Assembly (NCBI RefSeq): GCF_003217155.1 | Contig: NZ_QJSU01000001.1 | Span: forward strand, 310,001 to 374,000 | DNA length: 64,000 bases | Origin: Psychrobacter fozii | GTDB taxonomy: Bacteria > Pseudomonadota > Gammaproteobacteria > Pseudomonadales > Moraxellaceae | Reading direction: 5' to 3' | Part shown: positions 4,606 through 6,957 of the stretch, one piece after another | Position numbering within the stretch: position 1 is the stretch's first letter | Layout of the letters: every line of letters begins with the position of its first letter | Position numbers and translations under genes: made by a program | Notes under the pieces: generated by a model | Seen by the model: only the letters and a program-made list of their open reading frames with translations | Told to the model about the DNA's origin: nothing | The model's database searches: none

Positions 4606-4641
4606 AAAAACGCCAGTGGCTAATGCGACTGGCGTTTTTTT
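4606..4641. terminator. Bidirectional Rho-independent terminator
   Basis: Stem ACGCCAGT/ACTGGCGT with an A-run before and a T-run after. It lies between convergent genes (4084 plus, 4664 minus) and can serve both. The whole hairpin is repeated at 5582-5615. Confidence 0.9.
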
Positions 4642-5581: not shown

Positions 5582-5615
5582 AAAAAACGCCAGTGGCTAA
5601 TGCGACTGGCGTTTT
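5582..5615. terminator. Rho-independent terminator of pgsA (duplicate hairpin)
   Basis: Carries the same stem and loop as the terminator at 4606. Read on the minus strand it ends in a T-run and lies just downstream of pgsA. Confidence 0.88.
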
Positions 5616-5651: not shown

Positions 5652-6332
5652 TTAACCACTCTGCTTGAGATATGGCCAAGCGGCTCTTAGATAAATCATC
5701 ATCGACCATAATGTCAGAACAACAGCTGCAACCATCAACACATAGCCAATGGTTTCAAGCGACTCCCAGTTTAGAAGAAGCACCGTAATTGCCACCATCT
5801 GAAACGTCGTTTTTAACTTGCCGACATAAGATACTGCCACGCTGGTACTCTTGCCTAGCTCTGCCATCCATTCACGCAGTGCGGATACCGCAATCTCACG
5901 CGAGATAATGACAATCGCTGCTATCGCCATTATGATATTAGGGTGCCACTGTACTAAGATGATAAGCGCTACCGCGACCATCAGCTTATCAGCGACGGGA
6001 TCCAAAAATCGCCCAAAGGCTGACATCACATTGAGCTTACGCGCAAAGTAGCCATCTAGCCAATCGGTAATCGCAGCGATAATAAAAACGCCCGTCAATA
6101 ATAAATGCCGTACCAAGCTATCGCTGAACTCACTCATGCCTACCCGCGCAATCACATTATCTGAGATGGCTGGCATGCCGATTCCCATAGAAGGTGGCCA
6201 ATAAGCAATGGCGACAAATAGCGGAATCATTAATATTCGCGCAATAGTCAAGTTGTTGGGCAAGTTAAAAATACTCTTAGTATTTTGCGTACTTGATGGC
6301 TCCTGCGTATGCAAATGCGTATTCTCAGTCAT
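5652..6332 (-). CDS. pgsA: CDP-diacylglycerol--glycerol-3-phosphate 3-phosphatidyltransferase
   Basis: Makes phosphatidylglycerophosphate, the committed step to phosphatidylglycerol and cardiolipin, at the inner membrane. The CDP-alcohol phosphotransferase signature is complete: D-x2-DG-x2-AR-x8-9-G-x3-D-x3-D, seen as DWLDGYFARK then GRFLDPVADK. About five hydrophobic segments follow or flank it. I start at MTENTHLHTQ (226 residues). An in-frame upstream ATG would add 16 residues, and neither start has a strong ribosome site. The N-terminus is extended by about 25 polar residues before the first helix (NNLTIARIL), compared with the E. coli protein. Confidence 0.94.
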   Translation of the reverse strand: MTENTHLHTQEPSSTQNTKSIFNLPNNLTIARILMIPLFVAIAYWPPSMGIGMPAISDNVIARVGMSEFSDSLVRHLLLTGVFIIAAITDWLDGYFARKLNVMSAFGRFLDPVADKLMVAVALIILVQWHPNIIMAIAAIVIISREIAVSALREWMAELGKSTSVAVSYVGKLKTTFQMVAITVLLLNWESLETIGYVLMVAAVVLTLWSMMIYLRAAWPYLKQSG

Positions 6333-6750
6333 GGCAAACCCAGTTTCATATAGACATAATAATGGCGGATAGCTTAGCATTTTTCGGGCAAGTCGTCATG
6401 CCATCTCTTTAGCTACTAAGTTACCAATTATATTAAAATCCATCCGTAATCATCATATAACTATGAAGTATTAACATTATTTATTAGTAATGCGCATAAA
6501 ATCACAAAATCATTCATGTTTATTCGACATTATACTAACGTATATGTTCTATCAAATACCTCCTCTAAATGTCTTTTTAAACGTAATATCATGTAACCAA
6601 AACAGCCAAACCGTGGCTGTTTACGCTATGATAGCTATTCCAATAAAACACTTGTACACTTAAATAGGTAAGTAACTACATCTACCTATTGAATTAACCA
6701 CTACCACTCTAATTTTAGAGACTGATAGTAGAGTTACTTATAATAACAAC

Positions 6751-6841
6751 AACGCCCAATCACTGCCCTTGTAGTCATCATAGTTATTACTACACGCTCA
6801 GTTTCCTCAGCCCACAGTTCCTCCTTTGTGGGCTCTTTTTT
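6751..6841 (+). ncRNA. Candidate small regulatory RNA (~90 nt) with C/U-rich terminator loop
   Basis: Seen: a TATAAT box at 6739-6744, a stem TGTAGT/ACTACA (6770-6794), a single-stranded C/U-rich stretch (CAGTTTCCTCAG), and a terminator with stem GCCCACA/TGTGGGC followed by a T-run (6809-6841). The terminator loop reads GTTCCTCCTT, complementary to Shine-Dalgarno sequences. No open reading frame precedes the terminator, and the nearest plus-strand gene ends at 4578, so the terminator needs a local transcript. Inference: a trans-acting sRNA that pairs with ribosome-binding sites. No clear -35 box is visible, which lowers confidence. Confidence 0.5.
6809..6841 (+). terminator. Rho-independent terminator of the candidate sRNA
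   Basis: A 7-bp GC-rich stem (GCCCACA/TGTGGGC) followed by CTCTTTTTT on the plus strand. Confidence 0.85.
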
Positions 6842-6957
6842 GTCTACATTTATTCATCAATAAATATTTCACCATTTATGCTACTACAATGCCCTTTTAT
6901 ACCCACCTGAGCATTTTGGTTGTTAAAATCCTATGAAAGCATTTCCTGCTTTAAATT

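Follow-up and report, generated by a model that had tools for sequence, protein, structure and literature searches.

The window, by which we mean the whole stretch of 64,000 nucleotides of Psychrobacter DNA analyzed here, carries a pgsA-type gene for a CDP-alcohol phosphatidyltransferase (5652..6380, minus strand; Pfam PF01066). The gap between this gene and an 88-aa minus-strand ORF, for which no Pfam family was found, very probably contains a gene for a small regulatory RNA (6723-6841, plus strand). A first-pass annotation had described the gap as a gene-free stretch of 690 bp, which is about right if the internal ATG at 6332 is the pgsA start, whereas the stretch measures 643 bp with the start at 6380. 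Only frames of 1–5 codons (starts ATG, GTG or TTG) occur inside 6723-6841, in agreement with the earlier statement that no reading frame lies between the elements.

From 5' to 3' the predicted RNA, all elements of which are on the plus strand, comprises an AAN repeat (AAUAACAACAA, 6742..6752), hairpin 1 (6762..6802) with the outer helix ACUG...CAGU and the inner helix GUAG...CUAC, the unpaired motif UUUCCUC (6802..6808) and a terminator hairpin (6809..6834). The latter has a 9-bp stem (6809-6817/6826-6834) and an 8-nt loop, UUCCUCCU (6818..6825); it reads AGCCCACAG-UUCCUCCU-UUGUGGGCU and is directly followed by a T run (6835..6841). Both hairpins are assigned from the fold and from two-sided changes, and the stem-loop, the TTTCCTC sequence and the strong terminator recognized previously are all recovered. 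UUUCCUC and the loop represent anti-Shine-Dalgarno (anti-SD) motifs. The stretch 6802-6841, consisting of UUUCCUC, the terminator hairpin with its loop and the U run, is referred to as the 3' core and is present once in the window.

Promoter and 5' end of the predicted RNA

Comparison of the loci favors a promoter at 6689-6716 (plus strand), composed of the -35 element TTGAAT (6689..6694), located in an aligned TTG block, and, 16 bp further on, the -10 element AATTTT (6711..6716), which is weak here and reads xATxTT in relatives. The TTG is shared at this block by 38 of 57 non-redundant loci and is absent there in 19/57. Among the 38 TTG rows, the two following places are A and T in 31 rows each, while the -10 element has A at position 2 in 37 rows and T at position 3 in 36. 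From this promoter, transcription is predicted to start near 6723, giving an RNA of ~119 nt that extends to the terminator.

The first-pass annotation had relied on a TATAAT box (6739..6744, plus strand), which could serve as an alternative -10 element together with TAGAGA (6716-6721) located 17 bp upstream. The hexamer is indeed present, but it forms part of the AAU/AAC repeat, overlapping AAUAACAACAA, and is not conserved across species; moreover, promoter-like matches in the region do not exceed the level of shuffled sequences (6 found vs 8.1 expected). TATAAT is therefore judged less likely to be the promoter than the conserved block ~28 bp upstream, although it is kept open for the window's genome, in which the upstream -10 element is weak and TATAAT is perfect. 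Hence, the first-pass annotation probably misplaced both the promoter and the 5' end: the discrete non-coding RNA gene ending at a terminator stands, whereas its promoter, its 5' end and its length of ~90 nt had to be corrected.

Blocks upstream of the RNA promoter may belong to the divergent pgsA promoter. The same may apply to a direct repeat, GTAAG-N5-GTAAG, which precedes the -35 element in one clade (L022, L025, L027, L028, L057) and which we take to resemble the sites of OmpR-family regulators.

Structure, conservation and distribution of the RNA

The 103 nt from 6739 to 6841 fold with -22.1 kcal/mol as compared to -10.75 in shuffled sequences (z = -5.0; 0/200 as stable). In the window's 119-nt form, the minimum-energy fold trades hairpin 1 for a pairing that includes part of the AAN repeat, while the terminator is unchanged. 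In an alignment of 24 loci that was not fitted to the structure, two-sided changes are present in 5/16 pairs and 96.6% of the cells pair vs 93.2% in shuffles (0/500 as high). A model-fitted alignment, which includes 80 of 81 loci (L175 was missed) in 77 distinct rows and leans towards the model, contains two-sided changes in 13/16 pairs and 113 such cells, compared to 27.4 in shuffles and to at most 34 when the structure was slid along the alignment. All 7 modelled pairs of hairpin 1 are affected, e.g. by replacement of ACUG/CAGU with ACUUA/UAAGU across rows, and so are 6 of the 9 terminator pairs, where CACAG/CUGUG is exchanged for CACGG/CCGUG, CACGA/UCGUG or CGCAG/CUGCG. Thus, both hairpins covary in Psychrobacter relatives, which is the comparison that the first-pass annotation had proposed, and the loss of the stems in close relatives, considered there as evidence against the RNA, was looked for and not observed. 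An assembly of promoter-like and terminator-like sequence by mere chance, with which the chance frequency of promoter-like matches would agree, is at odds with the genus-wide conservation and is refuted by the covariation; we attribute next to no probability to it.

An RNA transcribed from the minus strand was also considered and rejected. The eight inner pairs of the terminator include 32 plus-strand G-U wobble cells and 2 unpaired cells; the T run sits on the plus strand and no useful frame follows the minus-strand AGGAGG. The outermost terminator pair (30 unpaired cells) has no bearing on the strand question.

The columns of the unpaired motifs rank among the best conserved of the alignment. 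UUUCCUC is exact in 82/82 loci (79 distinct genomes) and CUCC is present within the terminator loop in 77/82 (lost in L067, L070, L096, L099 and L100), counts that are partly given by construction, as the 82 loci were recognized via a fuzzy match to the core. The folded terminator loop is mostly 8 nt long and contains CCUCC in 66/82 loci. The mean unpaired probability amounts to 0.81 for UUUCCUC (57 rows) and 0.98 for the loop (56 rows). The RNA accordingly displays the conserved and accessible anti-SD motif that characterizes anti-SD sRNAs, and the complementarity of both C/U-rich sequences to purine-rich ribosome sites, already pointed out from the window, extends to the relatives.

Within the genus, the core adjoins the divergent pgsA gene in 80/82 loci (79 distinct genomes), at 194–683 bp (median 415) from the matched pgsA start; for L021 and L116 no pgsA gene was found within the available stretch. 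A second, non-syntenic match in G078 (L068; contig 13, 3047-3147) keeps TTTCCTCC and the TTCCTCCTA loop on a different stem and is possibly a paralogue or derived from a contaminant contig. As a control, seven non-coding segments around the locus were compared in 43 loci. The RNA was matched in 39/43 loci, the pgsA-RNA gap in 16/43, the fad-acs gap in 20/43, two segments beyond the RNA in 0/43 each, and two segments sharing an identical repeated terminator in 29/43 each. The latter is a 22-bp terminator-like inverted repeat (GCCAGTGGCTAATGCGACTGGC), which occurs at 4612-4633 and 5589-5610 with no mismatch, on either side of a 268-aa gene. As neighboring segments are also conserved, conservation by itself is not unique to the RNA, and the case for the latter rests on the conserved unpaired letters and on the covariation.

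These data also bear on the idea that the element is an ordinary intrinsic terminator, or the end of a 3' UTR belonging to a longer transcript, and does not act in trans. The conservation of the nearby terminator repeat fits such a scenario, as do the copies in genus g8 (L061, L066), where a same-strand ORF precedes the hairpin. However, in the window no plus-strand gene precedes the element within the gap, pgsA being divergent, and neither the conserved unpaired stretch and loop nor the covarying hairpin 1 would be expected of a plain terminator, which makes this explanation quite unlikely. Comparison rather establishes the RNA gene with its structure, motifs and place; on the sequence evidence, a promoter-like block, an AAN-containing 5' part, the covarying hairpin, UUUCCUC and the CCUCC-loop terminator appear as a single, old RNA unit beside pgsA.

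BLAST with positions 6700-6850 detected matches in 86/105 genus genomes at E <= 1e-3, in one place each, and in distant species the matches narrow to approximately query positions 103-146, i.e. 6802-6845. A covariance model built from 24 loci matched 93/105 genomes at E <= 0.1, again in one place each except for G078 with two. The 12 genomes missed by the model were inspected at pgsA, which is present in 11 of them, G081 lacking a good pgsA match. G074 contains a diverged copy recognized by eye and in G086 the contig ends 143 nt on. Nine genomes (G005, G031, G037, G038, G039, G044, G046, G055, G073) have pgsA and no element in the 900 nt read, indicating that some members of the genus truly lack the RNA.

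A collection covering 84,980 species contains 45 records with the exact core pattern, of which 42 are from Psychrobacter and 3 from Moraxella. The Moraxella copies (g14) represent a short form without hairpin 1, which keeps both motifs on compensated stems (CACUG/CAGUG; CACCG/CGGUG in L065) and is located upstream of an ORF for a TPR protein. In g8, the CCUCC loop is retained and UUUCCUC is lost, the hairpin coming after an ORF in L061; homology of these copies to the Psychrobacter RNA is uncertain. A search of 348 family genomes additionally yielded 27 g2 genomes, which are probably Acinetobacter, at E values of 0.02–0.09. Eight of the 27 were read (L073-L080) and rejected as homologues, none of them containing TTTCCTC; four (L073, L074, L076, L077) represent one different conserved terminator.

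No match to the RNA was found in a search of plasmids. A single viral contig was matched (L308; IMGVR_UViG_3300028498_000046), the first nucleotides of which fall within the RNA and are followed by a KilA-N/BstA-like gene. Mobile-looking DNA lies directly past the terminator in a few strains (L308, L058, L146, L021, L023), for instance a gene for a phage helicase/primase-like DUF3987 protein in L146, and TTTGACCACCA is found within 400 bp downstream of the RNA in 3/82 loci. The 3' end of the RNA may represent an integration site.

Predicted mode of action and candidate targets

The conserved motifs suggest a trans-acting sRNA that may silence selected messages through its terminator loop, which is complementary to strong ribosome-binding sites. 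We predict, with moderate confidence, that the RNA binds Hfq and blocks AGGAGG-led messages by means of the CCUCC loop and UUUCCUC. Binding to Hfq would involve the AAN repeat and a module formed by the U-rich stretch, the terminator and the oligo-U tail. The CCUCC loop, aided by UUUCCUC, would pair with the minority of mRNAs that possess an AGGAGG-type ribosome site, and pairing at this site would block the start of their translation. A partner other than mRNA is conceivable, as any accessible AGGAGG would be a pairing partner for the loop; action as a sponge for another, GGAGG-rich small RNA nevertheless appears very improbable to us.

The Hfq distal face is described to bind ARN repeats in the available text of PMC4104026 and PMC6239178. 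Runs of at least four AAN are present in 35/57 loci as compared to 1.1 in shuffled sequences, and the RNA thereby has the repeat of Class II-like Hfq sRNAs; 22/57 loci are without such a run. ARN runs occur in 42/57 loci (5.2 in shuffles), and the genome contains an hfq gene. The repeat could thus be a distal-face binding site. It also raises the possibility of an RNA whose main task is to hold protein, the AAN repeat and the U-rich module titrating Hfq in the manner of CrcZ-type decoys and the anti-SD loop being secondary. The frequency of AAN runs in the loci is compatible with this scenario, and PMC12802169 reports AAN motifs in A. baumannii sRNA99, which is likened there to CrcZ. We regard it as unlikely, for the Psychrobacter RNA has one AAN run rather than several, and its conservation is highest in UUUCCUC and the loop rather than in the repeat.

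Among 50 long ORFs of the window, the starts of which were picked by a simple rule, none has AGGAGG, GGAGG or GAGGAA at -20 to -4, while 19 have AGGA. AGGAGG start sites hence look rare, and the CCUCC loop could discriminate between messages. The whole genome contains 50 instances of AGGAGG-N3-10-ATG vs 30 for the reversed control. Of these 50 places 30 were read, and in 15 of them the ATG opens an ORF of 80 aa or more that is preceded by an in-frame stop no further than 25 codons away. According to Pfam, they encode a xanthine/uracil permease, a GntP permease, a Gate-domain protein, CorA, LptF/G, an NADH dehydrogenase (PF00146), cytochrome bd subunit II, CcmH, two type IV pilin-like proteins, an aldehyde dehydrogenase, an alpha/beta hydrolase, a nucleotidyltransferase and two proteins without a family. 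Among the AGGAGG start sites (L281-L307, L191), the 15 read thus include many that belong to genes for transporters, respiratory or envelope proteins. Messages for such proteins are the likeliest candidate targets of the RNA.

The best candidate is the xanthine/uracil-permease message, a lead rather than a result. Its ribosome site is the longest match to the loop of the window's genome, and the permease AGGAGGAA is conserved in many relatives. However, AGGAGGAA is not enriched 1–9 nt ahead of ATG (2 sites vs 8 for the reversed control), and one of the two sites heads a long ORF. The permease start was obtained in 66 of 67 genomes (G045 was dropped), 64 of which also have the core. In these 64 genomes (27 unique pairs), loops score 5.67 with their own permease sites and 5.42 when permuted, a weak co-variation that 84 of 2000 permutations matched or exceeded and that includes no control for relatedness. 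G013, G018, G092 and G029 look compensatory, whereas G006, G014, G043, G089, G100 and G103 do not. In 36/105 genomes, no permease was detected at E <= 1e-40, and the hits in G077 and G078 are probably paralogues. In the window's genome, TGAGGAAA start sites number 13 vs 8 for the reversed control, four of which (L181, L182, L186, L189) head ORFs of 174–438 aa. Duplex energies that permit unlimited internal loops were set aside.

The apparent rarity of AGGAGG sites in the genome would also allow for a broader mode of action. The 3' end of 16S rRNA reads CACCUCCUUA, and the loops CACCUCCU and UUCCUCCU can be likened to this tail. By imitating it, the RNA might read the strength of ribosome sites and set back strongly SD-led messages as a class instead of individual targets. 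We consider this rather improbable; if it were true, transporters, respiratory or envelope proteins would be among those set back.

Relation to known small RNAs

Rfam 15 detected just 4 tRNAs at gathering score in the whole window, and the 3 minus-strand matches obtained for 6650-6900 at E <= 10 fall far short of it; none was on the plus strand. The RNA, which the first-pass annotation had not recognized, is thus not covered by any described family that we found, and represents a new family of a known kind. In titles and abstract openings, with subscription journals mostly not covered, no study of a Psychrobacter sRNA was found; as far as the literature and Rfam searches reach, it would be the first sRNA family for Psychrobacter.

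By analogy, Aar, RepG and the anti-SD-loop RNAs of Rhizobiales and streptococci may serve as functional models, RepG being from Helicobacter pylori, which belongs to a different phylum than Psychrobacter. The RNA was not filed under any of them because it has no Rfam match and does not show the layout of the Aar seed. Aar of Acinetobacter is described as having its CUCC at positions 29-32, within a single-stranded 5' region rather than a terminator loop (PMC11472050), whereas the Psychrobacter RNA has CUCC-type motifs before and in the terminator hairpin and lacks an unpaired 5' CUCC seed. The distinction from Aar concerns this layout; model R1 gave only weak hits in the g2 genomes. Targets of Aar (carO, bfnH and others) are described as experimentally tested in the same text (PMC11472050), while those of the Psychrobacter RNA are candidates from sequence. 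Seven A. baumannii sRNAs are stated there to be conserved in organisms such as Moraxella catarrhalis (PMC11472050).

Like the Psychrobacter RNA, RepG is reported to have a C/U-rich terminator loop, which is its pairing site (PMC8295292, in part). SmelA075 and SmelA099 of Rhizobiales likewise carry an anti-SD motif (CCUCCUCCC) in hairpin loops on variable stems, but have three or four such hairpins according to the accessible part of PMC3927594, in contrast to one loop plus the unpaired UUUCCUC. The streptococcal csRNAs, as far as described in the available portion of PMC4438229, share two stem-loops, a conserved CCUCCU anti-SD motif in a loop and a terminator end; they differ in that the motif is in the first loop, several copies exist per genome, expression is controlled by CiaR and the hosts lack Hfq. 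An adenosine-rich (ARN) run combined with a terminator module is also found in Class II Hfq sRNAs such as MgrR, ChiX and CyaR. In PMC6239178, however, stability in Hfq mutants is the defining property of this class, whereas the Psychrobacter RNA, which has no Rfam match, is known from its sequence. With versions from ~90 species, hairpins that covary, a constant genomic position and ribosome sites of a class that seems to be rare, the Psychrobacter RNA makes the specificity of a generic-looking anti-SD loop testable.
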